Of a stretch of 38,352 nucleotides of DNA, positions 16,907-37,068 are shown one piece after another. The position numbers and the translations under genes were made by a program. Source of the stretch: Flavisolibacter longurius (GTDB lineage: Bacteria; Bacteroidota; Bacteroidia; Chitinophagales; Chitinophagaceae); assembly GCA_014163555.1 (NCBI GenBank), contig JACJGO010000034.1, positions 1 through 38,352 of the forward strand, given 5' to 3'. A model generated the notes under the pieces. The model ran no database searches and was not told where the DNA came from. It worked only from the letters and a program-made list of their open reading frames with translations. The stretch's first letter is position 1. Each line of letters opens with the position of its first letter.

Positions 16907-17010
16907 CTGTAAATAGGTTTCGTGTAAATACGATAGATCTAACAATCGGCAAGCGTAAATACTTTGTACTGATCCCAGGAAAATGATATTGAAAGTAAAA
17001 TAAAACAAAT

Positions 17011-17031
17011 GAAACATTTTTACAGAAAAAT
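17011..17031. promoter_or_regulatory. Possible operator upstream of the DeoR gene
   Basis: ATTTTT-ACAG-AAAAAT (17016-17031) is a small inverted repeat inside an A-rich stretch with TGAAAG (16990) and TGAAAC (17010), about 40-75 nt before the start codon. DeoR-family regulators commonly autoregulate from such repeats; that this is one is inference. Confidence 0.3.
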
Positions 17032-17067
17032 AAAATTCAATAGTATTATTGTCTGAAGGGCGAAAAC

Positions 17068-17832
17068 ATGACTATAACTGAGCGACATCAATTGATTTTG
17101 CAAAAGCTGCAGGAAGCCGGAAAGGTCGACATCCAGGAACTGGCAGAATCCATGCAGGTTTCAGGAGTAACAGTACGCAAAGACCTGAAGCTGCTGGAAG
17201 AAAAAAACCTCCTTTTCCGCACCAAAGGCGGCGGCTCTGTAAAAAATCCGTATACCACAGAAAAGCCTATCAACGAAAAAGAATTCATCAACGTTGAACA
17301 AAAGAAAAAGATTGCAAGGGCGGCGGTTCCCTTTACGGCCCAAACAGATTCAATCCTGATTGGTTCGGGCACCACTGTATTTGAGCTTTCTCGCTTCCTG
17401 TTCCCGAGCAAACATTTATTTGTAATTACACCCGCCTTAAAGGTGGCCCTAGAACTTTACAACCGGCCCAATGTAGAAGTGCTGCAACTGCCAGGACTTA
17501 TTCACCAAAGTTCAGCATCCGCTGCCGGCTCCTTTGCCGAACGCATATTAGACGATATTTCCTGTGACATTTTATTTCTGGGTGCCGACGGCATAGACCT
17601 GGAGCATGGCCTTACCATCACAAACCTTACAGAAGCAGGTTTAAACCAGAAAATGATTCAACTGGCGCAAAAGGTGGTGATCATGGCCGATAGCACCAAG
17701 TTTGAACGAAGAGGCATCGGTAAAATCTGTATGCTTGATCAAATTGATTGTATCATTACCGACGAAGGCATTGCCCCGGATCTATTAAAACAAACTGAGG
17801 AAAGAGGTGTGCAGGTGATCGTGGCAAAATAA
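17068..17832 (+). CDS. DeoR/GlpR-family transcriptional regulator
   Basis: 254 residues. The N-terminal HTH (1-57) has the DeoR signature: ERHQLILQKLQEAGKVDIQE, LAESMQVSGVTVRKDLKLLE, then LLFRTKGGG. The C-terminal DeoRC sensor domain (about 75-235) carries IGSGTTVFELSRFL, the phosphate-sugar-binding type loop, and LFLGADGIDLEHGLTITNL with MADSTKFERRG. Members usually repress sugar or polyol catabolic genes and respond to a phosphorylated intermediate. It is convergent with, and only 99 nt from, the last gene of the catabolic island. It is the only regulator next to that island, so it is the natural candidate to control it. The effector may be a product of one of the two FGGY kinases (inference). 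Confidence 0.93.
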   Translation: MTITERHQLILQKLQEAGKVDIQELAESMQVSGVTVRKDLKLLEEKNLLFRTKGGGSVKNPYTTEKPINEKEFINVEQKKKIARAAVPFTAQTDSILIGSGTTVFELSRFLFPSKHLFVITPALKVALELYNRPNVEVLQLPGLIHQSSASAAGSFAERILDDISCDILFLGADGIDLEHGLTITNLTEAGLNQKMIQLAQKVVIMADSTKFERRGIGKICMLDQIDCIITDEGIAPDLLKQTEERGVQVIVAK

Positions 17833-17931
17833 AAGGCCAAGACACGGTTGCACCAAACCCGAATTCAGGCTACCAATGCCCGTTATAAAGATCATCCATT
17901 ATATCAACTGCGTTGCGGTAAACCAGGCTTG

Positions 17932-18813
17932 CTAATTTTTCAAAGCGATTGCTACGTCTACCGGTAGATCCGATTCCAAAATATCAGCGCCTTGCTGAAA
18001 GGTTTCACGGTACGCAGCGGCTCGTTTCTCTGCCGTCTCCAGTTTATCATACACCGGTGCGGCAGAGATCATACACATCACCTGCCTCTGGTGCAACAGA
18101 TTGAAAAGTGTTTGATTTTCCGGCTTGTTGACCGAACCAATGTAAGCGATCATGTTCGTCCAGGGAACGCCTGATGCTTCGTATTCACGGAACGCTTTTT
18201 CTGTTTTTATGTGCGCCGACAGCATGCGGTTGTTATCATCATCGTAATAAAAACGGGCCTGTTCCGCATTGTGTACGGTCACCATCACAAAAGCACCGGC
18301 GTTGTGTTTGCGAATGATATCGGCCGTCATTTGAAACGGTACGTCTTTTTTGTCCAGATTCAGGACGGTTTTACCCCGGGCCCATTCAATGGCTTCGGCC
18401 AATGTGGGAATGCGGTAAGGCGTTACCTTGCCAAGGTGATCTTTCAGGCGCAGCTTTTTTACTTCCTCCCAGGTATAGTCCGAAAGTTTTCCCTTCCCCG
18501 TGGTGGTGCGGTCCAGGGTCGCATCATGCAGCAAAACAATCACACTGTCTTTGGTCAGTCGCGGATCAATTTCAAAAAACGCCGGTGTGTGGCGCAGCAC
18601 CTGTTCCATGGCTTCAATGGAATTCTCCGGGTATCCTTCCACCGCACAGCCCCTGTGGCCGCTGATTATCCGTTGCCCGTTGCCGGTATAGCGAAAATAG
18701 GCCTGCAGATCTTTTTCCGTTTTCGGACGAATCACCTGGAGTTTTGGTGAACAGCTTAGTGCAAAGGCAGCGAAAAAAAATAAGGGAACGATGGTTCTCA
18801 GTTGTCTCATCAT
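17932..18813 (-). CDS. Glycerophosphodiester phosphodiesterase lipoprotein
   Basis: 293 residues. The lipobox ALSC (Cys21) marks it as a lipoprotein. The GDPD TIM-barrel motifs are visible: GHRG (His53, Arg54), PENSIEAME, FFEIDPRLTKD (Glu81, Asp83) and LLHDATLDRTTTGKG (His96). Later, IPTLAEAIEWARGKTVLNLD supplies the remaining metal-site strand. Family members hydrolyse glycerophosphodiesters or polyol-phosphate polymers to sn-glycerol 3-phosphate or related products; some distantly related ones act on other phosphodiesters. It is the last gene of the island. Its ATG shares one base with the stop codon of the phosphatase gene before it (TGATG), so translation is coupled. Confidence 0.92.
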   Translation of the reverse strand: MMRQLRTIVPLFFFAAFALSCSPKLQVIRPKTEKDLQAYFRYTGNGQRIISGHRGCAVEGYPENSIEAMEQVLRHTPAFFEIDPRLTKDSVIVLLHDATLDRTTTGKGKLSDYTWEEVKKLRLKDHLGKVTPYRIPTLAEAIEWARGKTVLNLDKKDVPFQMTADIIRKHNAGAFVMVTVHNAEQARFYYDDDNNRMLSAHIKTEKAFREYEASGVPWTNMIAYIGSVNKPENQTLFNLLHQRQVMCMISAAPVYDKLETAEKRAAAYRETFQQGADILESDLPVDVAIALKN

Positions 18814-19418
18814 CAGCGAAGTTTAGCATTCAGAAATTGAAGCGTGAACACCCCCTTTTCATCCAGGGTAAATTGCGTGATGGCCGAATTCAGTTGCACC
18901 AACTGGCGATAATTCCGCAGGGGCATTCCCAATTTATGCGCCATGTAGAGGCGATTCACGCCATTGTGCGCAACCACCATAATGTTTCCGGAGCCATGTT
19001 TCGTCAACATCTCGCCAAAAAAATGATCAACCCGCTGCACCACCTCCATCCCGGTTTCGCCGGTGCCCCCTGCCCTTGCCGTAGCGGGGTCTCTCATCCA
19101 GGCTTCCCAAAGGCCTGGGTCTTCCGCCATAAATTCTTCCTTGGTCTTTTTTTCCCAGCCCCCGAAATCGGCCTCAATCAAACGCTCATCGGTCGTTACA
19201 TCTTTGCCCGATGCAATTTGTGCAGTTGTGAGGGCACGTTGCAACGGTGATGAATACACGCTGTCGAAATGGACACCTTCCAGTTGTTCACGAACGAGCT
19301 GCGCCTGTTGCAAACCCTGTTCAGTTAACGCTATATCGGTGCGACCGCAGTAGCGGTTGTTGTCGGCATTCCAGGCGGTTTCACCGTGCCTCAGTAAGGT
19401 AACTGTCAATTCTTTCAT
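18813..19418 (-). CDS. Histidine phosphatase (phosphoglycerate-mutase-like)
   Basis: 201 residues, no signal peptide. The catalytic RHG motif is at 10-12 in LLRHGETAWN, followed by RTDIALTEQGLQQA and SSPLQRALTTAQIA. The acid Glu lies in IEADFGGWE and the second His in MVVAHNGVNR. The size and the [T/N]DxxLTxxGxxQA layout fit the small cytoplasmic alpha-ribazole-phosphatase/CobC-like group, which includes sugar-phosphate phosphatases. Its start overlaps the upstream kinase stop by 4 nt (ATGA). Tight coupling to two sugar kinases suggests it removes phosphate from an overproduced or toxic sugar phosphate (inference). Confidence 0.92.
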   Translation of the reverse strand: MKELTVTLLRHGETAWNADNNRYCGRTDIALTEQGLQQAQLVREQLEGVHFDSVYSSPLQRALTTAQIASGKDVTTDERLIEADFGGWEKKTKEEFMAEDPGLWEAWMRDPATARAGGTGETGMEVVQRVDHFFGEMLTKHGSGNIMVVAHNGVNRLYMAHKLGMPLRNYRQLVQLNSAITQFTLDEKGVFTLQFLNAKLR

Positions 19419-20857
19419 TCGGGGATGTAACCTTTTTGTTTTAGTACATGGATAAATTGCTTGTAACCGTCGGCATATTGAGCGACCAATGATTTTTCCG
19501 GCAAGATAACCTTCTCGGCCTGTATCATCACTCCCGCTGCTTCAACGATGGTGGAATAGTGCGTTCGCGACGCTGCCAGAACAGCAGCACCAGCGGCACC
19601 GGAAACGTTCTTCATTTTGCGCAGCGGCAGGTTTAACACGTTGCTCCGGATAGTAAGCCAGGTATCGCTGTTGCTGCCGCCACCTGCGGTAAACACCTGT
19701 GCTACGTCCTCTCCTGAAAGCGCCTTGATGCGCTCATAGGCATAACGCTCTATGTAGGCCACACCTTCCATGTAGGCCGCAAAAAGCGCAGCATCAGATA
19801 AGCTCTCCGGCGCAAAGCCTTTGGCATCCGGCGCTACAAAAGGAAACCGCTCTCCCGTCTGCAACAGGGGCCAGGCGCTGTATGTAGTTGGAATCAGCGT
19901 TGCTACTCTTTCATTCAAAGCGTTTATATCCGCATTGCCAAACAGGCGGCTCACCCAGTCGGCACCCGTATTGCTGGCGCCACCGGGCATCCAGTAGCCC
20001 TGCGGGTGGCGGTGACAATAGATGGCTCCCGCCGGATCATTGATCTCTGTTTTAGTCACTCCTTTTACCACGAGTGTAGTCCCAATGGTCGTGTTCCAAT
20101 CGCCCAGATTCACGGCGCCGGAAGCTACCTGTGAGGCACAACCGTCGGTCATGCCGGCTGTTATTATAACTGTTGGCGGCAAACCTGTAGCAAGCGCAAG
20201 CTCTTCCCGTAAAACGCCGATTGGCTCACCGGAGGGCACAACGTTTTGCAGCCATTCCTTTTGTATAGGAAGGGCTTTAAAAATATAGTCCGGCCATTGC
20301 AGGCGGTGCAGGTCAAAACCCGATTTCAGGGCATTGGTATAATCAGTAACGGAAAAGTTGCCACTCAGCCGCCCGGTAATAAAATCGGCTGCGTGAATAA
20401 AGCTTCCGATCTGCGAAAATTTCCCGGGATATGTGTTGATAAACCAAAGCATTTTGGGCAACCCGCAGGAGGCGTTGAACGAAGAAAAGGCCCTGGTGCC
20501 GGAAGCCTTAGAAGCTTCTTTGCACACGGCGGCTTCGGCTGCCGACCGGCCATCGCTGTACATGATGGCGTTGTGCAACGGCTGCATTTGTCTGTTCAAC
20601 GGAATGATAGTGCCAGACGTAGACGTAACGCCGATTGCCTTTACGGCCCGCAGGTCAATGCTGCTTTTTACATCCTGGCAAAGCGCTTTGAGCGAAGCCA
20701 GGCAAGATGTCCACCATTGTTCCGGTGATTGCTCTTCCCGCGACTGGCTGTTCAGGGGAAACACTTCTTCTTTTGTTGCCACGGTATTTCCCACGGCATC
20801 CATCAACACAACCCGTGCTCCCTGGGTACCGATATCTATTCCAATAAAATACGCCAC
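19415..20857 (-). CDS. FGGY kinase, D-ribulokinase-like
   Basis: 480 residues. The N-terminal ATPase motif is GIDIGTQGARVVLMD (5-19). It has TSTSGTIIPLN (78-88), LMYSDGR-type IMYSDGRSAAEA, ADFITGRLSG and SVTDYTNALKSGFDL. AGMTDGCASQVASGA carries the catalytic base Asp238, then NTTIGTTLVVKGV and WMPGGASNTGADWV. The C-terminal half has VAYIERYAYERI and FTAGGGSNSDTW. From memory, TSGT, DYTNALK-x-G-x-D and GGASNTG match the AtXK-1/cyanobacterial D-ribulose kinase branch more than xylulokinase or glycerol kinase. Probable product: D-ribulose 5-phosphate or a related ketose phosphate. It lies 2 nt after the other FGGY gene. Confidence 0.88.
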   Translation of the reverse strand: MAYFIGIDIGTQGARVVLMDAVGNTVATKEEVFPLNSQSREEQSPEQWWTSCLASLKALCQDVKSSIDLRAVKAIGVTSTSGTIIPLNRQMQPLHNAIMYSDGRSAAEAAVCKEASKASGTRAFSSFNASCGLPKMLWFINTYPGKFSQIGSFIHAADFITGRLSGNFSVTDYTNALKSGFDLHRLQWPDYIFKALPIQKEWLQNVVPSGEPIGVLREELALATGLPPTVIITAGMTDGCASQVASGAVNLGDWNTTIGTTLVVKGVTKTEINDPAGAIYCHRHPQGYWMPGGASNTGADWVSRLFGNADINALNERVATLIPTTYSAWPLLQTGERFPFVAPDAKGFAPESLSDAALFAAYMEGVAYIERYAYERIKALSGEDVAQVFTAGGGSNSDTWLTIRSNVLNLPLRKMKNVSGAAGAAVLAASRTHYSTIVEAAGVMIQAEKVILPEKSLVAQYADGYKQFIHVLKQKGYIPE

Positions 20858-20859
20858 TA

Positions 20860-22317
20860 CTATTCTCCTTTATTCGTTTGCCGGAAAAATTCTCTTGCTT
20901 CTTTCCATTGGACATACAGCTTATCAAACTGCGCATCTTTCTGCGGACTGACGGTATCTACATCGTCGTTCAACTCCTCGTTGTTCAGCCCCAGTGCCGC
21001 ATTGCAAAGTAAGGCACCGCCTACGGCAGATGACTGGTGAAAGCCATGCCGCACTTTTACCTCTTTGCCAATGGCGTTGGCAATGAACTGCCGCAACGTT
21101 CTGCTTTGCAGTCCGCCACCGCAGGCCCACACATATCCGGGTTTGTGTTCCGATACTTCGTGCAGCACCCTGTAATTCTCCGCAATGGAAAAGGCAATAT
21201 CAAGAAGCGTTGCTTTGACAAAACAGCTTCGTGTCAGCTCGTGCGACACAGGCACAGGAAAAAGAAACCCGCCACGAATGACCGGCGTTTTTTCGCTTGC
21301 GATCAATGATCCAAGGGCTGCGGAACAATGCGTGTATGCATTTTCCGCAAGTTCTTTTTCAATAACATCATAATCTTCGTTCGGATAAAATACTTCTTTG
21401 AGCCGCTGGTAATTAAGGCCTGTAACGCCGGCATTGGCTTCAAAAACAAAACGGCCTTTTTCAATGTCTCGGCTCGTCCAGGTGCGTTCATCCGTATCCG
21501 TTATATAGGCATCCACCAGTTTTACAATGGGTGTGGTGGTGCCCGAAACAATAACGACGTCTTCTACCGCCGGCTGTGTGCTTCGAATGGCCAGCTGCGT
21601 ATCGCCACCGCCTTTTACGGCCACAGCGCTTTCGTTTATACCCCAGTCGGTGGCTGCTTGGCCTGTTACCGTACCCACTACGGATGCCGAATAGGTTAAC
21701 GGTGGAAGCAGCTCTTTTGTAAACCCAAAAACGTCCAGCAATTCAGTACTCCAATCATTCTGTGCAACATCAAACAACAGGGTTTCAGATGCATGGGAAT
21801 GTTCGTACGATGCAATTCCTGTTAACATGAATTCTGCCCAGTCGCTGATGCTTAAAAAGAAAGTTGTTTCTTCCCAGATGTCCTGCCGGCGTTCGCGAAT
21901 GCCCACCAGTTTCAGGGCCGAAAACAGGGACGTAGGATAACGGCCGGTTAACTGATAAACGCGGCTTTTGTCGGCAATGATGTTTTCCCATTCGCGGCCA
22001 CGGTGATCAATATTGGGCAGGCCAATCAGCGATTCACCGTTCTTTCCAATCAAGACAATACCTTCCCGCTGGCTGGTGCTGGTAACGGCTCTTATGTTCA
22101 CACCTCCTGCCTGTTGCAGGGCGGCTTTTCCTAATCCAATTAACTGCTGCCAGAGTTGTGTCGGGTCAAAATAGATGGAATCGGTATAGCGTTCATCGCG
22201 GTGGTACTGAATGTCACCTCTCGCCTCGCCCAGGATCGCGCCGCTGCTGTTCACAATCACTACTCTCACGTTCCCGGTACCAATGTCGATAACCAAATAA
22301 GCTTCGTTTGTTTGCAT
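20860..22317 (-). CDS. FGGY kinase, LsrK-like
   Basis: 485 residues, DIGTGNVRVVIVNSSG at 11-26. It shares with LsrK-type kinases the motifs TSTSQREGIVL (79-89), NIDHRGREWE, SISDWAEFMLTG (156-167) and VKGGGDTQLAI, with catalytic Asp239; the resemblance is from memory. LsrK phosphorylates the quorum signal AI-2, but the broader subfamily includes kinases for short polyols and ketoses, so the AI-2 role is not claimed here. C-terminal WACGGGLQSRTLRQFIANAI closes the FGGY_C domain. It is preceded by the dehydrogenase gene (6 nt) and followed by the second kinase (2 nt). Two adjacent kinases of different subfamilies imply two substrates or two steps. Confidence 0.87.
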   Translation of the reverse strand: MQTNEAYLVIDIGTGNVRVVIVNSSGAILGEARGDIQYHRDERYTDSIYFDPTQLWQQLIGLGKAALQQAGGVNIRAVTSTSQREGIVLIGKNGESLIGLPNIDHRGREWENIIADKSRVYQLTGRYPTSLFSALKLVGIRERRQDIWEETTFFLSISDWAEFMLTGIASYEHSHASETLLFDVAQNDWSTELLDVFGFTKELLPPLTYSASVVGTVTGQAATDWGINESAVAVKGGGDTQLAIRSTQPAVEDVVIVSGTTTPIVKLVDAYITDTDERTWTSRDIEKGRFVFEANAGVTGLNYQRLKEVFYPNEDYDVIEKELAENAYTHCSAALGSLIASEKTPVIRGGFLFPVPVSHELTRSCFVKATLLDIAFSIAENYRVLHEVSEHKPGYVWACGGGLQSRTLRQFIANAIGKEVKVRHGFHQSSAVGGALLCNAALGLNNEELNDDVDTVSPQKDAQFDKLYVQWKEAREFFRQTNKGE

Positions 22318-22323
22318 GCTGTA

Positions 22324-23334
22324 TTAAGGTTGAATACGTACGGTTAAAACATCTTTGTTGGCAAGACGATGCATTGATTTCTGGTCGTGCACAAACCAAT
22401 TGACCAGGCATTCGTTCAGGATGTCAACATGATGGTCTTCTACTTCAAACGTGGCACCGGCAATATGCGGCGTAGCCAGCACATTGGGCAAGTCAATGAT
22501 CTTGTAATCGAGCTCACTCGGCGGCTCTTCATCAAAAACATCGATTATGGCGCCTTTGATTTTGTTTTGTTTCAATACTTCGTAAAGATCGTTGGTGTTG
22601 ACAACCACCGCACGGGCCGTGTTTACGAAAATGGCGCTTTCCTTCATCCGGCCAAAAAGCGATTGATCAATCATTCCTTTTGTTTCTTCGGTAACTGGCA
22701 GGTGAATGGAAACAATATCACTGGTAGAAAAAACCTCCTCCAGCGACAGGCTGTTGTAAGCAGGGAATTGTGAAGCATCCACAAAAGGATCGTAATACTG
22801 GATCTTACAGGGATAGCCTTCAATCATCCGGGCAATCAATTGCCCGATGGCACCAAAGCCTACCATACCAACGGTTTTGCCGGCCAGTTCGCAACCCTTA
22901 AATTCCAGGTATGAAGTATGGGCGCCTTTGTCCCACTTCCGGTCTATCAGCCACTGACGGGCCGGTATGGTGTGGCGCATAAAGGCAACCACGTTGGAGA
23001 TGAACATTTCGGCAACCGCCTGCGCATTACGTGCCGGTGTATAAAAAACGGGAATACCGTTTTTGGTAGCTGCTTTCAAATCAACATTGGATGGCGTACC
23101 GCGACAAACACCAATAAATTGCAGGTGTGCATTGGCGTTAATAACGTTTGCCGTTACATGATCGTGTTCGGTGATCAGGGCTTCGGCTTCTGTTTCGTAT
23201 AGCAGGTGCAGTAGTTCTTCTTCGTTGTAAGCTCTGTCGTTTGCTTTCCAGGGTTTGTACACAACTTCACCAAAGCTTTGCTTCAGGTCAAAAAGGCCCT
23301 TTTCATTATAGGGTGCTGTAACTAAAATTTTCAT
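22324..23334 (-). CDS. D-2-hydroxyacid dehydrogenase, NAD-dependent
   Basis: 336 residues. The Rossmann loop is VGMVGFGAIGQLIARM (155-170), with D-isomer-specific catalytic residues Arg241 (NTARA), Glu270 (DVFDEEPP) and His290 (TPHIAGAT). The N-terminal substrate half includes CRGTPSNVDLKAA (77-89) and TPARNAQAVAEM, as in SerA/HPR-type enzymes. It probably interconverts a 2-hydroxyacid and a 2-ketoacid, possibly phosphorylated, in the cytoplasm. In this cluster it may act on an aldonate or a 2-keto derivative formed from the imported polyol (inference). A 5-bp hairpin (CCGGC 23350-23354 / GCCGG 23360-23364) sits just before the start, in a 71-nt gap after the transporter gene. Confidence 0.92.
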   Translation of the reverse strand: MKILVTAPYNEKGLFDLKQSFGEVVYKPWKANDRAYNEEELLHLLYETEAEALITEHDHVTANVINANAHLQFIGVCRGTPSNVDLKAATKNGIPVFYTPARNAQAVAEMFISNVVAFMRHTIPARQWLIDRKWDKGAHTSYLEFKGCELAGKTVGMVGFGAIGQLIARMIEGYPCKIQYYDPFVDASQFPAYNSLSLEEVFSTSDIVSIHLPVTEETKGMIDQSLFGRMKESAIFVNTARAVVVNTNDLYEVLKQNKIKGAIIDVFDEEPPSELDYKIIDLPNVLATPHIAGATFEVEDHHVDILNECLVNWFVHDQKSMHRLANKDVLTVRIQP

Positions 23335-23405
23335 GGTTATTATTTTTACCCGGCATAGGGCCGGATGATTTCAACTTCTGATTCTATGTGCAACTGTTAT
23401 TTCGT

Positions 23406-24695
23406 TTATGTTTTTTCAATTGTTCGAAGCGGTTCCAGGGTGGTGACAACTGGCTCCTTTGTTAGTTCTGACGAAGCGTGAACGGGAAGGGTGATGAACC
23501 GTGTAAGAATGGCACTTACCAGGTAAAGGCCAGCCAGTATCCAGCACACGCCTTCTGCACCTACCGCACCAAAAAATAATCCTACGATTAGCGGTCCCAC
23601 AAACACGGCCAGGCCAGCACCAAGGTTCAGTATCGCCATGGCCGCACCTTTGTCTTTGCGCACCAGCGAAGGCACCAGGGCCGAAAGCGGCACGTAGCCG
23701 GCAAGACAGGCACCCCAAAGTATTCCGGCCGTCATCACCGCCGCATAGCTGCCGCCGGAAAATTGGGGCATATAAAACAGCAGCAAGGTGGTTATTGCAC
23801 AGCCCACGCCGCCAAACCATTGAACGGTTTGCCGCCAGCCAAGGCGGTCGCCAACAAAGCCAAATATCAGGTTGAACAGGATGTTACTGGTAAAGATGGT
23901 GCCCCAGATGTACAGCCATTCTGTAGTGGAAAAACCATACGCGGCCATGTAGGTAGGAAGAAAAACCGGGAAGGCAAATTGCGCCGTGGTGTTGATCACC
24001 CGGACAATACCACCAAGCAAAACCTTGGGTTCTTCTTTTACAATGGTGAGGCCTTTGGCCAGTTCGTTCCAATGGCTTTGTGCGGAGACGCTTTTTTCAA
24101 ATTTTGCTTTGTTCAATACCAGCGCAAACAGGGCGCCAACCAATACCCAAAAGATAGAGCTCCACAAGGCGTTGATATGCCCCAGTTCGCGAATGGCCCA
24201 ACTGGAATAAAAAGCACCGAGTACGTTCAACCCGCCGGTAAACACAAACCAAAACCAACCCACGGCCCGGCCCAGCATAGACTTAGGCGTTGCATACGAG
24301 ATCCACACCAGGAAAGAGTAGGCAAAGAGCGGATAGCCAAAGCCGCGTACTGCATAGGTGGCCAGCATTACCCCATAATTGAGTTCCGCCACGCCAAAGG
24401 CGATAAAACCCACGGTACCCAGGAGGTAAAGCAGCAAGCCGGCCGCCATTGTTTTTTTCGGTCCGAAGGATTGCGCCAATACACCCGAAAACCAGGAAGA
24501 AATGGCAATGGTGATGCCGTAAACGGAAAACAGGGAAGCCGTCTGCTGAATGCTCATGCCCCTGTCAACGAGGTAAGGACTAAGCCAGCCTACTTCCATG
24601 CCGTCTCCCATCATAAAAACAAGTATTCCCAAATAACCATACAGGAGCGATGGCGGAATACCGAGTTTACCGGCAAATGTGTTTGTTGTATTCAT
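23406..24695 (-). CDS. MFS polyol transporter, RbtT/DalT/CsbX type
   Basis: 429 residues, 12 hydrophobic segments. The start LLYGYLGILVFMMGDGMEVG aligns by eye with the ribitol/arabinitol permeases (LLWGYVAIAVFMTGDGFELA), and the similarity continues through YAVRGFGYPLFAYSFLVWI, GRAVGWFW and GGIVRVINTTAQFAFPVFLP with STTEWLYIWGTIF. This family (polyol permease) imports ribitol, D-arabinitol or similar acyclic polyols by proton symport. It is the strongest clue to the island's substrate. It is the middle gene of the distal half of the island, 71 nt before the dehydrogenase gene and 144 nt after the metallophosphoesterase gene. Confidence 0.92.
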   Translation of the reverse strand: MNTTNTFAGKLGIPPSLLYGYLGILVFMMGDGMEVGWLSPYLVDRGMSIQQTASLFSVYGITIAISSWFSGVLAQSFGPKKTMAAGLLLYLLGTVGFIAFGVAELNYGVMLATYAVRGFGYPLFAYSFLVWISYATPKSMLGRAVGWFWFVFTGGLNVLGAFYSSWAIRELGHINALWSSIFWVLVGALFALVLNKAKFEKSVSAQSHWNELAKGLTIVKEEPKVLLGGIVRVINTTAQFAFPVFLPTYMAAYGFSTTEWLYIWGTIFTSNILFNLIFGFVGDRLGWRQTVQWFGGVGCAITTLLLFYMPQFSGGSYAAVMTAGILWGACLAGYVPLSALVPSLVRKDKGAAMAILNLGAGLAVFVGPLIVGLFFGAVGAEGVCWILAGLYLVSAILTRFITLPVHASSELTKEPVVTTLEPLRTIEKT

Positions 24696-24839
24696 GCTGT
24701 CGACTATTTTATATTTTTTGGGACGAAGGCTTCTGCCGTATTGCTAAAGGCCGCAGTTCTTCTATTGGTGCCGATTGGCCCTTTTGATTTTACACCGCCA
24801 TAGAAGATGCTTGCTTCACTCCACAGCTATTTTTACCTG

Positions 24840-25949: not shown

Positions 25950-25958
25950 AGTTTTTGA

Positions 25959-26879: not shown

Positions 26880-26934
26880 AACAGAATTGCTTAAAAAATT
26901 ATCCAGTAAAACATTCGATCCGCTTATTTTACCA

Positions 26935-28467: not shown

Positions 28468-28590
28468 TTCGAAAGGCAATGATTTGAATACCTTTTTGCA
28501 CGCCATAATGATTAATTCAAACTCCGTTTGTTATTGAATTGCGATGATAAACTCCCCCTGGTGACAGCACCTTTTGAAGGCATTTAATGA

Positions 28591-29997: not shown

Positions 29998-30016
29998 TAT
30001 TTAAGTTTTTATGAGA

Positions 30017-31285
30017 TTAATTTGAAATAACCACTTTATCCGCCGCCGGTTGAACCGATGCCTCGCGGGGCTTTTCCGGCCGCACCATGGTCCAAAGTAT
30101 CAGCACCGAAAGCGGGTGCAGCAAGGCCATGATGATGAAGATCTGTCCTGCACCGATGGTTCCTATTAACTGCCCGACAAAATAGTTGAACACCACCGCG
30201 CCGATGGCGCCAAAACCACCGGAGATGCCCATTACACTGGCAACGTTCTTTACCGGGAATACTTCGGAGCCCAGCACCGGCAGGGTAAATACCCAGCTCA
30301 GGCAAACCATGGCCACGATACTAAACAAGGCAATGGTAGCAAAGCCATTGGGCATGTACGTGGTGAGAATACAAAGCGGCGCAAAAAACGCGGTAACGGT
30401 TAACATGATGCGTCTTGCCTGGAAGGGTCTTTTTCCCCGGCGCACCATACGGTCAGACCAGGCCGAGGTTCCAATGGCACCCAAGTCGGCGGCGAGAAAA
30501 GGGATCCAGCCAAACATGCCCACCTGCGCCAACGTAAGCCCGGATTCTTCCTGCAGGTAACCAGGCAGCCAGAACAGGCAGAAATACCAAACCGGGTCGC
30601 TGATAAAACGAATGAGTAAAATGCCGTAAAGGCTCCTGGTTTTCCATAGTTGTCCCCAGGTAAAGGAGGCGCTTGTTGCCGGGCCGGCCGTGTGCACAGC
30701 TTCTTTGGCTATGTGAGCTGGCGGATCTTTGTAAACAGCCCGCCATAAAAAGGCAATGAGCAAACCAACGGCACCGCCCACAAAAAACACGGCATGCCAG
30801 CTAAAGGAAATAGCGATCCAGGCTACCAGCGGTGGGGCAATGATGGCGCCGATGGAACTACCGGCTACGCACAGACTATTTGCCGTTGCACGCAGCTTCC
30901 CGGGAAACCAAACGGTAACCACTTTCAACTGCGAAGGAAAATTAGTCGGCTCCGCCATGCCAAGCAGGGCCCGGAAAAAACTAAACTGTGCAGCCGTTTT
31001 TGCAATGCCGCCGCCAATGCAGGCAACGGCCCAACCAATCACCCCCCAAAACATCACTTTTTGCGGACCAAACCGGTCTACCAGCCAGCCGCTCACAGGA
31101 TACATGAGAGCATAACAAATGGTAAAGGCATTGATGACCCAGGCATAACCGGCATCGGTCAACTGGTACTCTTCTTTCAACACTGGTTTCAGAATCGAAA
31201 CAATCTGACGGTCGAAATAATTAAAGACGATAGCAATAAAAATTACGGCAACAATTAACCACCTTCTTTTTTCCGGCTTCATCAT
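30017..31285 (-). CDS. MFS transporter, ACS family (hexuronate-type)
   Basis: 422 residues, 12 hydrophobic segments. FIAIVFNYFDRQIVSILKPV at the first helix, SGWLVDRFGPQKVMFWGVIG, and RALLGMAEPTNFPSQLKVVT followed by WFPGKLRATANSLCVAGSSI are the anion:cation symporter (ACS) signatures shared with ExuT/GudP-type hexuronate and glucarate carriers. It probably imports an organic acid such as a uronate or aldonate. This is a second inner-membrane carrier in the island, so two chemically distinct products may be taken up. It lies 29 nt after the first EEP gene. Confidence 0.9.
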   Translation of the reverse strand: MMKPEKRRWLIVAVIFIAIVFNYFDRQIVSILKPVLKEEYQLTDAGYAWVINAFTICYALMYPVSGWLVDRFGPQKVMFWGVIGWAVACIGGGIAKTAAQFSFFRALLGMAEPTNFPSQLKVVTVWFPGKLRATANSLCVAGSSIGAIIAPPLVAWIAISFSWHAVFFVGGAVGLLIAFLWRAVYKDPPAHIAKEAVHTAGPATSASFTWGQLWKTRSLYGILLIRFISDPVWYFCLFWLPGYLQEESGLTLAQVGMFGWIPFLAADLGAIGTSAWSDRMVRRGKRPFQARRIMLTVTAFFAPLCILTTYMPNGFATIALFSIVAMVCLSWVFTLPVLGSEVFPVKNVASVMGISGGFGAIGAVVFNYFVGQLIGTIGAGQIFIIMALLHPLSVLILWTMVRPEKPREASVQPAADKVVISN

Positions 31286-31314
31286 TCCTTCTTTGCTTTT
31301 TTGTATTGCTGCGA

Positions 31315-32223
31315 TTAGTTACGCGGTACAGTCCCCAGCGTCATGATCACCGGGTAATGATCAGACAAGGTATGCGTTTCTTCATCCTGTACAATGTCAA
31401 CGGCTTTTACCTGCTTTGCCAGGGCGTTGTTTACCCATACAAAATCAATGCGGCGAATCTTTGAGTTTTTAGTAGCGTGCCCTTTGGTGGGCACGCTGTT
31501 CTTAAACGTTCTGTTTGTGAGATAAAAAGCATCATTGAAGCCTGCGACGATCATCTTGTTCGTAACGGTGTAGTCCATCTTGCCGTTGTCAAGGTTGTTA
31601 CGATAGATGGTTTTTCCTTTTACAATGGGTAGCCCGCTTTTGGGTTCCCGCCGGCCCTCCGAACGGCGCATGGCAGTTAACAGATCCTTACCGTAGTGCG
31701 CCGAATCTTTTGCCGCCACGGCGTTAAAGTCGCCGGCAATAATAACACCTTCCCCTGCCGGCAACTGCTTTGCTTTTGTAAGCAACAGGTCCACATCCTG
31801 TCGCCTTAGCTTTACTTCAAACGGCGAGAGGTGCGTTACAAAAACATGAAGGCCGTTTATGTTGCCATATAGATAAGAATGCCACATCTTCACCGTTTCT
31901 CTTTGCACATTAGTAATGGGAAAACGGGATGTCAGGCCAATAGGATGCGTTACATCGGTATTGATAGCTACGTAAGCGTGACCATAACGTTTTGCCAATG
32001 CCGCTAACCGTTCTTCTGTAAAACCATTTAGCTCCTGGAAGGAAAAGATATCGGCGCCCTGCCGCTTGGCCCAATCCACAAACCTGTTTTCCAGCAGGGA
32101 ATCGTTGTTAAAGCCATGCAGCACATTATAATTAATCATCTTCATCCCGCCGTTAACAGTTTGCTGTGCCGCAAGCCAGCAGAAGCTAATTAAAAAAGCA
32201 AAGGAGAGAAAGAATCGACGCAT
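31315..32223 (-). CDS. Secreted EEP-family phosphatase/nuclease
   Basis: 302 residues with a Sec signal peptide (1-20, SFCWLAAQQ). EEP motifs: INYNVLHGFN (Asn), FSFQELNGF (Glu), FVTHLSPFE (His), IIAGDFNAVA (Asp, Asn), RRIDFVWVN (Asp) and LSDHYPVIM (Asp, His). It is a distant paralog of the EEP protein at 25959. It is the third gene of the island, 73 nt after susD, the place normally taken by a glycan-degrading enzyme in a polysaccharide locus. It probably acts on a phosphoester of the imported ligand at the surface or in the periplasm. Confidence 0.9.
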   Translation of the reverse strand: MRRFFLSFAFLISFCWLAAQQTVNGGMKMINYNVLHGFNNDSLLENRFVDWAKRQGADIFSFQELNGFTEERLAALAKRYGHAYVAINTDVTHPIGLTSRFPITNVQRETVKMWHSYLYGNINGLHVFVTHLSPFEVKLRRQDVDLLLTKAKQLPAGEGVIIAGDFNAVAAKDSAHYGKDLLTAMRRSEGRREPKSGLPIVKGKTIYRNNLDNGKMDYTVTNKMIVAGFNDAFYLTNRTFKNSVPTKGHATKNSKIRRIDFVWVNNALAKQVKAVDIVQDEETHTLSDHYPVIMTLGTVPRN

Positions 32224-32296
32224 AGTGGAACCACATTTAGTTTACCCACAGTTATAAAATTGAACCCAACAACACAACGCAAATCACCTTAACGGC

Positions 32297-33967
32297 TTAC
32301 CAGTTCGGGTTCTGCTGCAGGGCCTTGTTCGTTTGTAATTCAACCGGGTGAATCGGCCACAGGTAATGCTTGTTCGGGTCAAACACCATGGTTTCAATCA
32401 CACGCAGGATATTCTTATTGGGTATGTTGGAATAATCCGGCGTGGTGTTTTCATCCAATGTTGGCGGAGCCACCAGGAAAGCGGTCTTGCTGTTGCCATA
32501 ACGCGGGCCATTCATTACTTCATCCGCAATTTTCCAGCGTCGGATATCAAACAGGCGACGACCTTCCAGCGCCAATTCTATTTTTCTTTCACGTCTTACG
32601 ATACTGCGCAATTCCGCCTGCGTTCTTCCCTGCGGAATAGCAGGCATACCCACCCTGCTACGAACCGCATTCAGCGATGTGTAAACAGAATTATCAATAT
32701 CGTTGGCTTCGATCTTTGCCTCCGCATACATGAGTAGCAGGTCGGCATAACGCATCAGGATAATATCACCGGCGTTTTCCTGTGTAAAGCCCATGTCTTT
32801 TGAATCCGTCCACTTGCGCCACAGGTAACTGGTAAAGGTGGCAAATGCATTGGTGGCATCGGTATTGTTTACCCGCACGGCCGGATTGACGTTATAGTTC
32901 CAGACTTTTGTGCTATCCGGATGCGTCTCAAACTGAAAACCATGATAAATAGTACCGGGAACGGCAATGGTCATGTGTAAACGAGGGTCGCGGTTCGCAT
33001 ACGGTTTTTGCGGATTGTACAGAGGCGATTTGTCGATTGTTTGTCCGTCGGTACATTCATAGGAATCCACCATCGCCTGTGTCGGCACTTCATTTGACAC
33101 ACCAGCTACCAGGCGCGACCCGAACTGCCGGAAGATGATATGTACATTGACGCCTCTTAAATACTGCATGGAAAAAATGCGCTCTTTCGAGGTTTCGCCA
33201 TCATAGGTAAAAAGCTGGGCATAGTTGGGATGCAGGCTGTAATGGCCTAAATCCATGGCTTTTTTGGCAGCTTGTGCAGCGATCGTCCACCGGCTATCGC
33301 AAAGCGCTGTATAGGCTTTCAGGAAATAGGCGGCAACGTTTGTTGCCCGGCCGGAATGCCCGGCGTATGAAAGTGGCAGATCCGGGGCTACCGCATCCAT
33401 TTCTGCCAGTATCCAATCAACAATTTGTGTTTTTGGCGTGCGGGGCATCATCGCTTCGTCCAGCGTGATGCTTTTGGTGATGAGCGGAACGTCGCCAAAG
33501 AAACCGGTCAGGTAAAAATAACTGTAAGCCCGTAAGAATCTTGCTTCTGCAACCACCTGCCGGATGTAATCATCCGCTACATTTCCTTTGGCGTTATCAA
33601 TATTATCCAATAGAAAATTGGTTCTCGCGATGACTGCGTAAAAGTCTGACCATGCATTTTGCGCGGTTGCATTGTCGCTGGCGGCCGTCCCGTTCCCCAG
33701 AGAGCCGATCGGCGATGCATCGCGGTTCCAGTTGATATCAGTGGTACAATCCAGCGAAACAATCCAAGGCATAGCGCCTTTAAGGCTGATTCTGTTGGTT
33801 AGTCGTCCATAACATCCGAGAATACCCATGTCCACCTCCGTTTTGTTATTAAAGAAAGAAGCAGAGGAAGGACTGTCCAGCGGAAGTTTATCCAGTATAT
33901 CTTTTTTACAACCGGTAGCAAAAAGCAAAGATGACAGTATTATGCTACAGAGGAATTTCATTTTCAT
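32297..33967 (-). CDS. susD: SusD/RagB-family nutrient-binding lipoprotein
   Basis: 556 residues; LFATGC with Cys20 is the lipobox. SusD features: the LDKLPLDSPSSASFFNNKTE opening, helical TPR-like core with VAEARFLRAYSYFYLTGFFG and DVPLI, and the C-terminal signature YADLLLMYAEAKIEAND, RSRVGMP, RERKIELALEGRRLFDIRRW and LWPIHPVELQTN. It sits on the cell surface as the lid of the SusC transporter and binds the ligand. The gene follows susC by 20 nt. The subfamily (and so the ligand) cannot be read from the sequence alone. The symbol is generic. Confidence 0.96.
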   Translation of the reverse strand: MKMKFLCSIILSSLLFATGCKKDILDKLPLDSPSSASFFNNKTEVDMGILGCYGRLTNRISLKGAMPWIVSLDCTTDINWNRDASPIGSLGNGTAASDNATAQNAWSDFYAVIARTNFLLDNIDNAKGNVADDYIRQVVAEARFLRAYSYFYLTGFFGDVPLITKSITLDEAMMPRTPKTQIVDWILAEMDAVAPDLPLSYAGHSGRATNVAAYFLKAYTALCDSRWTIAAQAAKKAMDLGHYSLHPNYAQLFTYDGETSKERIFSMQYLRGVNVHIIFRQFGSRLVAGVSNEVPTQAMVDSYECTDGQTIDKSPLYNPQKPYANRDPRLHMTIAVPGTIYHGFQFETHPDSTKVWNYNVNPAVRVNNTDATNAFATFTSYLWRKWTDSKDMGFTQENAGDIILMRYADLLLMYAEAKIEANDIDNSVYTSLNAVRSRVGMPAIPQGRTQAELRSIVRRERKIELALEGRRLFDIRRWKIADEVMNGPRYGNSKTAFLVAPPTLDENTTPDYSNIPNKNILRVIETMVFDPNKHYLWPIHPVELQTNKALQQNPNW

Positions 33968-33987
33968 TTTTCAGTTTTTTGTAATGG

Positions 33988-36900
33988 CTAAAATCTCAGG
34001 TCAACACCAAGGGTAAATGTTTTCACCATTGGGTAATTGGTTCCGGTTCCGACGGGTGTCTCCACATCAAAACCGTCCCAAAAGCTGTCAAATGTTAACA
34101 GGTTTAGGCCGTTTACATAAACACGTGCCTGCTCAAGGTTCAGCCGGGATAAGAATTGCTTGGGAAGATTGTAACCAAGTTGAATGTTTTTTAGCCGCAG
34201 GTAAGAAGCGTCTTTCATCCAGAAGCTGGAATGCTGGTAATTGTTGCCCGCATCGCCCCAGGTTAAACGCGGAAAACTTGCATTCCTATTCGCTTCTGTC
34301 CAATAGTCCTTGTGTTGTTCGTAGGTAGACGCGCCGCTAAAAAACGGTTGTATGGCCCGCCCATATAAGTAACCATCTGCTTTTCCAACACCTTGCAGAA
34401 ATGCATTGAATGTTATATTCTCAAATTCAGCGTTCAGGTTCAAACCATAGGTAAACCGGGGAATGGTGCTGCCCACAATCTTATAATCATCCGCATTGAT
34501 GATGTTGTCTTGGTTTTGGTTTACGTACCGGATATCCCCGGGCGCCAGCACACCAATTTGTGCCACGTGTTTTGCGATTTCTTCGGCCGACTGGAAATAA
34601 CCATCTGCCTCTAACGCAAAGATGGAATTCATTGGGTAGCCTTCCCGACTGACCTGCAACCCCGACTGACTGACCCCGCGCAGATCCAACACAGTATTTC
34701 TTACATCTGACAAATTGAAAGCAATCCCGTAGCGGAACTGCCCGGCCACACCTTTGTAATTCACCGTGGCATCCCAACCCCGGTTCTGCACTTTACCGGC
34801 ATTTTGATACGGCGCTGACAGCCCAATACTGGTTGGAATATCGAGTCGCAGCAGGATATCATAGGTGATCTTGTTGTACCAATCAAAACTCACCGACAGG
34901 TTTTTCAACAGGGTGGCATCAAAACCAACGTTTGTCATTTCAGAGGTTTCCCACGAGATCTGTTCATTGTTCATTTCATTCAGTGCCGCAATCTGCAGGA
35001 TTTGTCCGCCCAGCGTGTAGGAACCCAAACTCAGCGTGGAGGCAAAGGGGTAATTGCCAATGTTCTGATTGCCCAAACGGCCCCAGGACCCGCGGATCAT
35101 CAGGTTATTGATAGCGCTTAGATCCATCATAAAATCTTCAGAAGACAGGCGCCATCCTGCGGAAACAGATGGGAAGAAGCCGAAGCGGTTGCCTTTGGCA
35201 AACCGGGAAGAACCGTCGTACCGGCCATTTACTTCAATCAGGTATTTCGAATCAAAATTGTAATTGAGTCGACCAAAAAACGACTGCAGTGCCCATTCCG
35301 AAGCATTGCCTGATGCTTCCCGGTTATCCTGCAAGCCGGCGTCAAGGACACGGTAGTCCGGGAAGGTAAACCCATCGCGATAGGCCCTGAAATTCCGGGA
35401 GAGATAGGTTTCCACGGAAGAGCCGAGTAAGAGCTTAAACCCATGCCGGTTGATGGTATGGCTTGCTGTTAAGTACCCGTAATAGTTGCCGTACATATAG
35501 CGGATACTCCTGTTGGCAAGGGTGCTTCTTTCCGGCCGGATAAACAACGGGCTTCCGTTTTGCTGGTAGGTTTGAATAGCCCGGTTATAATTATCGTTGT
35601 AAAGTTCTTCGTACCTCGGTTGCGCCAAGAGCTCTGCGCTCAGCCACTGGGTCGGCTTGTAATTCAGAACGAACCGACCCAGAAGTTTCGTCAGTTCTTC
35701 AATTTGCGATCCGCCGTCTGGTCCGGAGAAGGCAATTGGATTTTCACCGTTCCAGGCTTCGCCATATAAACCATTGGAATAGCGTCCCGGCTGTATGGCC
35801 GGAATCCGGTTCATCTGTAGGAATACAGAACTTAAACCGCTTCCCGGCTCTACGGTTTTTGCTTTTATCAACTGTACATCCGCCTGAAGGCTCAGCTTGT
35901 CGCTGATGGTAAAGTCGGCATTGTTGCGGAAGGTATAGCGTTTGAAATCCGAGGTTTCAATGATGCCTTTTTGATTTAGGTAACTGGCCGTGGTCAGCAA
36001 ACGGAATTTACCCCCACCAGTGTTGATAGATAAATTATGGCTATGCATCAGGCCAGAGCCTCTTAAGACTTCTTTCTGCCAGTCTGTATTCGGATACAGG
36101 TCCGGGTTAGCGGCCATGTTCTGCTTGTAATTTTCAATATGCGCCTGCGTAAACAAGGGAGACGCACCGGAATTTTTGTGGGCCAGGTTGATCATTTCCA
36201 TATGATCGATGGCGTTCACTTTCTGTGGCAGATCGGTGGGCTTTTGAACACCCACATACGTATGATAGTTGATCTTGAAACCACCCGAAGCCCGTTTTGT
36301 GGTGACTAGGATAACCCCATTGGCGGCACGGGAACCGTAGATTGCCGCGGACGCAGCATCTTTCAGTACGTTTATGGAAGCGATTATGTTCGGATCGATC
36401 GTGTTCATATCACCTTCCACCCCGTCTATTAAAACCAGCGGATTGGAATTGTTCAATGTTCCGATACCCCGTATCCGGATGGCCCCTTCACTTCCAGGTG
36501 CCCCGGAAGAATTAGTAACCGTTACACCGGGTGCAAGACCCTGCAAAGCGCTGGCTGTAGAGGAAAAAGGGCGTGAGCCAAGGTCGCTGGTCTCGATCAC
36601 TGTTACTGATCCGGTTAGGTTTGCCCGTTTTTGCGTACCATAACCTACAACCACAACTTCATCCATTTTGGATACGACTTTCTGGAGGGTCACGTTGACG
36701 TTGGATTGACCGTTTACCGGGATCTCCTGTTCAACATAGCCTACATTTGAAAACACCAATACGCCTTTCGCAGAAGGCATGGTCAGCCGAAAGTCGCCTG
36801 TCTCATTCGTTGTTGTTCCCGCACTTCCACCTTTTACCGCAACGCTGACACCGGAGAGTGGCAGATTGTTTTCATCCGTGACTTTGCCTTTCACTTCAAT

Positions 36901-37068
36901 GGCCTGAAAATAGCCATTGGCAAACGTTGCATTGGAAACCAATAAAATGATCAATAGGATTTTGGCAACCCAATAATAGGACCGCCACCCTTTTGGCGTT
37001 TGTGGCACAGCCGGGAAAGGCCGTGTCCATCGATTTCGTAAAACAGTCATTTTCATACTTTTTAGCAA
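33988..37068 (-). CDS. susC: SusC/RagA-family TonB-dependent outer-membrane transporter
   Basis: 1026 residues. A hydrophobic signal segment (32-50) ends before a CarboxypepD_reg-like domain (57-130, VKGKVTDENNLPLSGVSVAV). Then come the TonB-box region MDEVVVVGYGTQKR (135-148), a plug (about 149-260) with the SusC hallmark AAIYGSRAANGVILVTTK, and a C-terminal 22-strand beta-barrel ending TLGVDLRF. It imports a large or bulky ligand in partnership with SusD. It is the first gene of the island; no ECF sigma factor, anti-sigma factor or hybrid two-component gene lies next to it. ATGs at 37056 or 37050 are alternative starts. Confidence 0.96.
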   Translation of the reverse strand: MLKSMKMTVLRNRWTRPFPAVPQTPKGWRSYYWVAKILLIILLVSNATFANGYFQAIEVKGKVTDENNLPLSGVSVAVKGGSAGTTTNETGDFRLTMPSAKGVLVFSNVGYVEQEIPVNGQSNVNVTLQKVVSKMDEVVVVGYGTQKRANLTGSVTVIETSDLGSRPFSSTASALQGLAPGVTVTNSSGAPGSEGAIRIRGIGTLNNSNPLVLIDGVEGDMNTIDPNIIASINVLKDAASAAIYGSRAANGVILVTTKRASGGFKINYHTYVGVQKPTDLPQKVNAIDHMEMINLAHKNSGASPLFTQAHIENYKQNMAANPDLYPNTDWQKEVLRGSGLMHSHNLSINTGGGKFRLLTTASYLNQKGIIETSDFKRYTFRNNADFTISDKLSLQADVQLIKAKTVEPGSGLSSVFLQMNRIPAIQPGRYSNGLYGEAWNGENPIAFSGPDGGSQIEELTKLLGRFVLNYKPTQWLSAELLAQPRYEELYNDNYNRAIQTYQQNGSPLFIRPERSTLANRSIRYMYGNYYGYLTASHTINRHGFKLLLGSSVETYLSRNFRAYRDGFTFPDYRVLDAGLQDNREASGNASEWALQSFFGRLNYNFDSKYLIEVNGRYDGSSRFAKGNRFGFFPSVSAGWRLSSEDFMMDLSAINNLMIRGSWGRLGNQNIGNYPFASTLSLGSYTLGGQILQIAALNEMNNEQISWETSEMTNVGFDATLLKNLSVSFDWYNKITYDILLRLDIPTSIGLSAPYQNAGKVQNRGWDATVNYKGVAGQFRYGIAFNLSDVRNTVLDLRGVSQSGLQVSREGYPMNSIFALEADGYFQSAEEIAKHVAQIGVLAPGDIRYVNQNQDNIINADDYKIVGSTIPRFTYGLNLNAEFENITFNAFLQGVGKADGYLYGRAIQPFFSGASTYEQHKDYWTEANRNASFPRLTWGDAGNNYQHSSFWMKDASYLRLKNIQLGYNLPKQFLSRLNLEQARVYVNGLNLLTFDSFWDGFDVETPVGTGTNYPMVKTFTLGVDLRF

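Follow-up and report, generated by a model that had tools for sequence, protein, structure and literature searches.

What compound is served by a SusCD transporter pair that is followed by phosphoesterases? SusCD systems are usually read as glycan importers. The question is raised by a gene island in the 38,352-nucleotide stretch of Flavisolibacter longurius DNA analysed here (contig JACJGO010000034.1, called the window below; the source genome is 5.66 Mb). According to the comparison of gene order among related genomes, the island splits into two modules. Module A consists of the genes for an ACS-type carrier, an FAD-dependent oxidoreductase (FADox) and the second of two endonuclease/exonuclease/phosphatase proteins (EEP2), often with a metallophosphoesterase (MPE) and SusCD. 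Module B consists of the genes for the polyol permease RbtT, a D-2-hydroxyacid dehydrogenase-family enzyme (HADH), two FGGY kinases (FGGY1 and FGGY2), a histidine phosphatase superfamily protein (HisP) and a GDPD-family phosphodiesterase, with a DeoR-family repressor. We read the island as a carbon-utilisation locus for a phosphate-linked compound with a pentitol-like polyol as its alcohol part, and as an overall mechanism we give this reading even chances of being right. That the ligand would be held by phosphate ester bonds is well supported by comparison among genomes.

The open reading frames (ORFs) of the window were called and scanned with Pfam and NCBIfam profiles. Fourteen co-oriented genes on the minus strand span positions 37068 to 17932. 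The largest intergenic gap in this run is 144 bases (between the MPE and RbtT genes), and the other genes are separated by less than 85 bases or overlap. The genes are as follows, together with the DeoR gene on the plus strand.

33988..37068, minus strand: SusC/RagA TonB-linked outer membrane transporter (TIGR04056, 920 bits, cut-off 368).
32297..33967, minus strand: SusD-family outer membrane lipoprotein of the SusD clade associated with module A (PF07980, PF14322; trees with SH-aLRT 99).
31315..32223, minus strand: EEP1, predicted exported endonuclease/exonuclease/phosphatase protein, a local addition outside the core (PF03372).
30017..31285, minus strand: ACS-type MFS carrier, module A (PF07690; TIGR00893 217 bits and TIGR00881 137 bits, both under cut-off).
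28591..29997, minus strand: FAD-dependent oxidoreductase, module A, with no visible leader (PF12831, 439 bits).
26935..28506, minus strand: sulfatase, predicted exported, with a C-x-P-S-R motif, a local addition outside the core (PF00884, PF16347).
25959..26879, minus strand: EEP2 phosphoesterase, module A, with an invariant arginine pair in the leader (PF03372; 9-row alignment).
24840..25949, minus strand: MPE, predicted exported calcineurin-like metallophosphoesterase, partner of module A (PF00149, 25 bits, cut-off 21.5; 13-row alignment).
23406..24695, minus strand: RbtT/DalT/CsbX-family polyol permease, module B (TIGR00897, 547 bits, cut-off 375).
22324..23334, minus strand: HADH, D-2-hydroxyacid dehydrogenase-family enzyme, module B (PF02826, PF00389).
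20860..22317, minus strand: FGGY1 kinase, nearest to LsrK/XylB, module B (PF00370/PF02782).
19415..20857, minus strand: FGGY2 kinase, nearest to AtXK-1 and the D-ribulose kinase SePSK, module B (PF00370/PF02782).
18813..19418, minus strand: HisP, histidine phosphatase superfamily branch 1, module B (PF00300, 187 bits).
17932..18813, minus strand: GDPD-family phosphodiesterase with a lipoprotein-like leader, module B (PF03009, 82 bits; 3mz2, 316 bits).
17068..17832, plus strand: DeoR-family repressor, convergent with the GDPD gene (PF00455, PF08220).

An earlier note, made from the DNA letters, had counted at least thirteen co-oriented genes from susC to the GDPD gene; fourteen were found. Every family that it named was recovered by the profiles, namely two EEP proteins, one MPE and one GDPD (the four exported phosphoester-type enzymes of the note), a sulfatase and, as the cytoplasmic partners proposed there, a polyol permease, an ACS carrier, two FGGY kinases, a 2-hydroxyacid dehydrogenase, an FAD oxidoreductase and a phosphatase. 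Its range begins at 17068 because the DeoR gene, which it did not mention, lies there. SusC and SusD are adjacent with a 20-base gap and co-oriented with the enzymes, and the island thus has the layout of a SusCD utilisation locus (PUL-like). The note's claim that glycoside hydrolases and polysaccharide lyases are absent also held: neither these nor other carbohydrate-active enzyme (CAZyme) Pfam families were found in the 14 proteins at E ≤ 1e-3. Therefore, the island is not a polysaccharide utilisation locus in the strict CAZyme sense. Signal peptides, lipobox and twin-arginine leader were assessed by visual inspection only. EEP1, MPE, the sulfatase, SusD and GDPD look exported from their leaders, and the EEP2 leader looks like the twin-arginine type.

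The two modules were compared among 195 genomes of the family, the own genome included (genomes are numbered G, and loci L). MPE relatives are present in 13 of these genomes (E ≤ 1e-30), and gene order was read in up to 40 kb around 16 of the 17 MPE matches outside the window. In the five closest islands (G085, G161, G077, G002 and G003), DeoR, SusCD, ACS, FADox, EEP2, MPE, HADH, FGGY1, FGGY2 and HisP are all kept; RbtT is found in four of them (absent from G003), and GDPD in three (absent from G003 and G077). The gene order there is SusCD, ACS, FADox, EEP2, MPE, RbtT, HADH, FGGY1, FGGY2, HisP and GDPD. The deoR gene is divergent from susC in these islands, whereas it is convergent with the GDPD gene in the window. 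EEP1 and the sulfatase are absent from all five operons, and their best other relatives in the family genomes reach 36% and at most 47% identity, respectively. EEP1 and the sulfatase are local additions outside the conserved set.

The modules also occur apart. In G071 and G150, MPE, ACS, FADox and EEP2 are accompanied by a SusCD pair 57–61% identical to that of the window, and the sugar genes are absent from these segments. In G022, ACS, FADox, GDPD, EEP2 and MPE are found together and SusCD is absent. The remaining, more distant MPE matches are relatives in different surroundings. G015 (loci L015 and L016) keeps only SusC, SusD and MPE behind a FecR-type gene, its SusD belongs to the module A clade, and neither FADox nor FGGY1 was found in that genome; this trio looks like a minimal phosphate-type version. 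At L031, L034 and L144 (G071, G150 and G582), a protein of about 850–870 residues follows the module A EEP2, and its sole Pfam match, in G071 and G582, is a weak ShlB match near the C-terminus.

For the spread of module B, named genomes were scanned with the FGGY1 alignment. Forty-two loci were obtained; a Spirochaetales bin (25% identity) was excluded, and 41 were counted. By their titles they come from Chitinophagaceae, Sphingobacteriaceae and Hymenobacteraceae. Homologues of the window proteins were counted above 60 bits, and several loci end at contig ends or at the 10 kb flank. Five loci (L044, L047, L048, L052 and L076) apparently coincide with contigs of the genomes numbered G and are not independent of those comparisons. 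Modules A and B are both carried by cultured relatives such as Terrimonas ginsenosidimutans (L048) and Pseudoflavitalea rhizosphaerae (L047). The record of L076 is titled Williamsia sp., an actinobacterium, yet carries a Bacteroidota island, and the title looks wrong. FGGY1 was counted in 40 loci, FGGY2 in 39, HADH and HisP in 37 each, RbtT in 36, GDPD in 31 and DeoR in 26. The counts for the other genes are SusC 20, SusD 18 (one further SusD, in L074, showed up in the SusD tree), MPE 14, sulfatase 3 and EEP1 2 (56% and 48% identity). FADox above 60% identity is present in 19 loci, among which 18 have ACS, 17 have EEP2 and 12 have SusC or SusD. At least one of GDPD, EEP and MPE is present in 36 of the 41 loci. 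Further phosphodiesterases were also observed: PF01663 proteins in L062, in L072 (where there are two) and, judged by similarity, in L073 and L080, and a PF04185 protein with a second GDPD beside the same modules in G172. In G018 (L105 and L106), a phospholipase C-like protein (PF04185 and PF05506) adjoins FADox, and the SusCD pair there is of another lineage, akin to the pair adjoining module B in two Chitinophaga.

FADox is found in 12 of the 195 family genomes (E ≤ 1e-150) and FGGY1 in 13 (E ≤ 1e-100), with the own genome in both sets. All 12 FADox genomes carry FGGY1, where about 0.8 shared genomes would be expected by independence; shared ancestry weakens this test, and the 12 genomes span 10 genera. 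Only G098 has FGGY1 without FADox. The two genes are unlinked in three of the 12 genomes, being 1 Mb apart in G022 and on different contigs in G071 and G150. Outside the family, they lie close together in G196. As FADox genomes all have FGGY1 and the converse fails, module A seems to feed module B, and module B can serve other sources.

Within the set, conservation is lowest for SusC and SusD. Beside module A they show 30–61% identity, with one outlier at 25–30%, whereas the enzymes of the five closest islands are 58–87% identical. A SusD tree was made by a quick method with no bootstraps; four repeat rows were dropped, three rows remained ungrouped, and fragments with fewer than 400 aligned residues (L045) were excluded. 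Of the 19 SusD proteins encoded next to module A genes, 18 group in a single clade (SH-aLRT 99), which is separate from 29 of the 33 other SusD proteins of the own genome and from seven SusD proteins beside module B alone. In a smaller tree, 16 SusD proteins encoded next to module A genes (in G015, next to MPE only) lie on one side of a branch with SH-aLRT 99. Therefore, the transporter lineage mostly travels with the phosphoesterases.

These results bear on two further claims of the earlier note. It had proposed that the ligand is held by phosphodiester and perhaps sulfate bonds. The phosphate ester part agrees with the phosphoesterases at 36 of the 41 loci, with the extra phosphodiesterases and with the SusD clade. 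The sulfate part is not supported: of the three sulfatase homologues at the 41 loci, two lie on the opposite strand, and the third is co-oriented at 29% identity. A sulfate-based ligand was dropped, as the sulfatase is local to this island. A conserved linkage of the phosphoesterases to this susCD pair had also been expected. Across many genera the phosphoesterases do accompany the catabolic genes; the exact SusCD pair, by contrast, is conserved least of all.

A DeoR-linked motif may connect the two modules. It was trained on the regions upstream of 31 deoR genes with the coding bases removed; an initial motif proved to be the start of the deoR coding sequence and was rejected after the coding bases were stripped. 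The 24-base motif runs TAAAC..AATTAAACAAAATTAAA, an AT-rich direct repeat with a 10-base period, and the 20-base scanning matrix reads T.AAAC..AAT.AAACAAAA. Six untrained module A segments lying apart from module B were scanned. In all six, the region directly in front of module A has the highest score of all intergenic regions (first of 19, 15, 18, 6, 9 and 12 regions, with 19.1, 14.5, 15.1, 8.8, 15.6 and 15.0 bits, respectively). Five of the six segments have hits above 14 bits, six in total, and each of these hits precedes module A. The 99th percentile for single-base shuffles of the training regions is 12.5 bits. In the window, the two best of the 13 intergenic regions are consistent but weak.

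16990..17009, plus strand: weak DeoR-linked motif match upstream of deoR (11.1 bits, top of the 13 regions; untrained region).
37384..37403, plus strand: weak DeoR-linked motif match upstream of susC (8.6 bits, second among the 13 regions).

By these placements, the motif marks module A even where it is unlinked. The presence of a DeoR gene argues for carbon control.

The individual enzymes were compared with solved structures. RbtT exceeds the curated TIGR00897 cut-off and belongs to the RbtT/DalT/CsbX permeases. FGGY1 matches the autoinducer-2 kinase 5ya0 (112 bits). The best matches of FGGY2 in the PDB are 5htr (187 bits) and 5htn (154 bits), which we take to be AtXK-1 and SePSK, respectively, followed by XylB 2itm (139 bits). 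With these presumed entry names, its closest solved relatives are kinases of the SePSK/AtXK-1 (D-ribulokinase) type. SePSK uses D-ribulose, and the response of AtXK-1 to D-ribulose is weak (PMC4880283). FADox is the most conserved gene of the island, with 71–87% identity among Bacteroidota relatives and 70–75% identity to copies on Neorhizobium and Microvirga plasmids. Its PDB sequence search gave weak FAD-domain matches only, and its structure model was poor (pLDDT 52) and was discarded. The closest models of the ACS carrier are D-galactonate and PgtP, neither reaching the cut-off, and its substrate may be an organic anion, a sugar acid or a phosphate-like compound.

Among the phosphoesterases, the nearest solved relatives of EEP2 include 3g6s and the mannosyl-6-phosphatase 4c1r. 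Residues with catalytic or metal-binding roles in these families do not vary in the EEP2 alignment (9 rows) or the MPE alignment (13 rows). The PDB sequence search gave zero matches for MPE and nothing informative for EEP1. The MPE structure model is good (pLDDT 83), and its best folds are calcineurin-like, including Lmo2642, purple acid phosphatases, acid sphingomyelinase and others, with TM-scores up to 0.56. These are merely general calcineurin-like enzymes, and therefore no substrate can be deduced from them. In HADH, Arg241, Glu270 and His290 are invariant in an alignment with 11 relatives, including that of Enterococcus raffinosus. In this organism the HADH relative is the direct neighbour of the FGGY1 relative, in a cluster that also has a class II aldolase, MtnK and MtnA; this arrangement suggests that the pair makes a ketose 1-phosphate.

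The RbtT permease and the FGGY2 kinase nearest to AtXK-1/SePSK favour a polyol. The RbtT score, the FGGY2 relatives, the plasmid context of FADox and the pairing of HADH with FGGY1 point to a pentitol-like substrate that would pass through FGGY1, HADH, HisP and FGGY2 in this order. The sequences directly show the gene families, the two modules and how they co-occur, the SusD clade and where the motif lies; export, the reaction order, a pentitol as the polyol and the binding of DeoR are inferences. SusCD would carry the phosphodiester across the outer membrane. The exported GDPD, EEP2 and MPE, helped locally by EEP1 and the sulfatase, would cut the diester and remove phosphate. RbtT would import the polyol-like product, and the ACS carrier a second, probably anionic, product, which the cytoplasmic FADox may prepare for the shared pathway. 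FGGY1, then HADH, HisP and the D-ribulokinase-like FGGY2 would lead to a pentulose 5-phosphate. DeoR would repress both modules until an intermediate of the pathway releases it. Among candidate polyols, inositol was ranked low, as no known inositol gene is present among the 14.

Several observations weigh against this reading. GDPD is missing from 10 and RbtT from five of the 41 loci, and SusCD is missing from seven of the 19 FADox loci, some loci being incomplete. Eleven genomes from the 22 loci lacking module A were checked, and eight of them have no FADox at E ≤ 1e-60; thus module B has a use of its own. Relatives from Niastella, Flavitalea and Mucilaginibacter, as well as G071, have glycoside hydrolases (GH106 or GH35) near module B, identified by Pfam for L059, L058 and G071 and by similarity for the others. 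At some loci they stand beside or in place of GDPD, so the substrate may also derive from glycans. The G018 SusD, encoded next to ACS and FADox, is not in the clade and groups instead with SusD proteins adjacent to module B of two Chitinophaga. There is no classical polyol dehydrogenase in the island, and the family of HADH is not known to oxidise polyols or polyol phosphates. The motif is AT-rich, the window has no site of at least 14 bits, and G582 scores just 8.8. No hit above 14 bits was found in the G071 module B region, the G172 segment or the G015 segment, and G018 gives three such hits, inside the ACS gene, by the SusC/SusD junction and upstream of RbtT. The six motif tests are not all independent, because G071 and G150 share a genus, module A of G579 is accompanied by a deoR of its own, and the regions used for training included those of the module B deoR genes from G578, G579 and G582.

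Other neighbours of module B were observed. In L058 (Flavitalea sp. BT771), module B is embedded in a cluster of glycan type that also encodes GH35, GH106, a beta-helix protein and another SusCD pair. At L068, L070 and L078 (Pedobacter), module B is directly preceded by a GntR regulator and a rhamnose-type operon comprising RhaT, an aldolase/dehydrogenase fusion, an isomerase-like protein and an FGGY kinase.

Could the locus instead serve phosphate gain, with the carbon genes merely disposing of leftovers? SusCD loci with phosphoesterases replacing CAZymes were described in 2020 in Flavobacterium as phosphate utilisation systems (PUS), and those clusters respond to phosphate depletion (PMC8115612). 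The island has this described layout, namely SusCD beside exported phosphoesterases with no CAZymes, export being judged here by visual inspection, and G015, in which neither FADox nor FGGY1 was found, has a SusD of the same clade next to SusC, MPE and a FecR-type gene. The island has, however, a sugar-type DeoR as well as seven carbon-pathway proteins better conserved than the SusCD pair, and FADox and FGGY1 track each other in all 12 genomes. Moreover, the Pfam scan of 20 window ORFs gave no PhoB- or ECF-type regulator; a PAS-type histidine kinase is encoded at 6903–9326. We consider phosphate gain unlikely as the purpose of the island.

The ligand may also be a phospholipid headgroup or a glycerophosphodiester, such as glycerophosphoinositol or glycerophosphoglycerol, from which GDPD would release glycerol 3-phosphate and the alcohol. 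The frequency of GDPD (31 of the 41 loci), the phospholipase C-like protein beside FADox in G018, the PF04185 protein of G172 and the match of the ACS carrier to the PgtP model, under its cut-off, all point this way. Against them, no inositol, choline or ethanolamine pathway gene is present among the 14, and a glycerol product would need neither a D-ribulokinase-type FGGY2 nor two FGGY kinases. We hold such a ligand to be unlikely.

Within the reading of a phosphate-linked polyol, a narrower proposal was considered: the island would take up pentitol-phosphate glycopolymers, for example ribitol-type teichoic acids, through SusCD and degrade the pentitol by way of a pentulose 1-phosphate. FGGY1 would phosphorylate the pentitol at one end, and HADH would oxidise the product to a pentulose 1-phosphate. 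HisP would then remove the phosphate, and FGGY2 would re-phosphorylate the pentulose to D-ribulose 5-phosphate. To our knowledge, this is not a known route. The GDPD family would fit a GlpQ-like activity. Some bacterial polymers contain rhamnose bound to ribitol phosphate, and the GH106 rhamnosidase encoded near module B in other genera may strip rhamnose from the same kind of polymer. Such polymers would fit the module B neighbours, and plant or other glycans would fit them equally. We regard this proposal as quite unlikely in its full form; if the ligand is a polymer like teichoic acid, Bacteroidota would feed on the wall polymers of Gram-positive neighbours by a dedicated locus.

That the ligand is a phosphorylated glycan, which the phosphoesterases only trim and which glycosidases encoded elsewhere degrade, is very unlikely: EEP2 is related to the mannosyl-6-phosphatase 4c1r and GH106 or GH35 genes occur beside module B in the relatives named above, but the island has no CAZyme, none was seen inside the linked sets of both modules (where some neighbouring ORFs are unnamed), and the module B enzymes are of pentulose or polyol type.

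Outside the island, 2.8 kb of the window (14247–17067) are without an identified gene and contain a 168-residue frame at 16105–16611. A glycine-rich protein with a type IX sorting domain is encoded at 4246–6411 and a subtilase-family protease at 9820–11325.

The preferred reading, a carbon-utilisation locus for a phosphate-linked polyol, was compared with known systems. The ribitol (rbt) and D-arabitol (dal) operons of Klebsiella have an RbtT/DalT-family permease and an FGGY pentulose kinase. The island likewise has such a permease and an FGGY kinase; it differs in having no usual ribitol or arabitol dehydrogenase, with HADH, a second FGGY kinase and a phosphatase instead, and in adding outer-membrane uptake and phosphoesterases. 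In a megaplasmid cluster of E. raffinosus, presumably of the 5-deoxyribose/methylthioribose (DHAP shunt) type, HADH (44% identity) and FGGY1 (33% identity) adjoin near a DeoR gene, as in the island. This cluster differs by its class II aldolase, iron-type alcohol dehydrogenase, MtnK and MtnA, and no SusCD, phosphoesterase, FGGY2 or HisP homologue was found in the 21 kb read. The Neorhizobium plasmid operon shares FADox (70–75% identical) and an FGGY kinase with the island. The kinase of Neorhizobium strain SOG26 is a TIGR01315 pentulose kinase (704 bits, cut-off 409). This operon has LacI, sugar ABC uptake genes and an SDR where the island has HADH, and the annotation of the operon in NZ_CP147997.1 names no phosphoesterase. 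The Microvirga plasmid copy of FADox stands with LacI and ABC genes. In L100 (a plasmid of Neorhizobium sp. EC2-8), FADox is annotated as two adjacent pieces; it is a single frame in the two other Neorhizobium copies.

The conservation of the island in several genera speaks for a SusCD lineage that is specialised for a phosphoester and tied to carbon catabolism beyond phosphate gain. The compact gene set and the likely regulator make the substrate findable. The earlier note knew of no described locus with this exact set. A literature search, with most subscription journals outside its reach, found no description of the set with its own kinase and dehydrogenase pathway. The claim has to be corrected in that SusCD loci with phosphoesterases as such had been published in 2020.

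The nearest of these are PUSI and PUSII (PusCD) of Flavobacterium johnsoniae. They have a SusCD-like pair, exported phosphomonoesterases or phosphodiesterases and no CAZymes, as the island does, and PUSI has a PF00149-type enzyme, as does the island with its MPE (PMC8115612). Unlike these systems, which are induced by phosphate depletion, the island keeps a DeoR gene together with a polyol permease, an ACS carrier, two FGGY kinases, a dehydrogenase, FADox and a phosphatase. These seven carbon proteins (RbtT, ACS, FADox, HADH, FGGY1, FGGY2 and HisP) and DeoR indicate carbon use. SusCD with phosphoesterases was already known, and the dedicated catabolic regulon is what appears new here.

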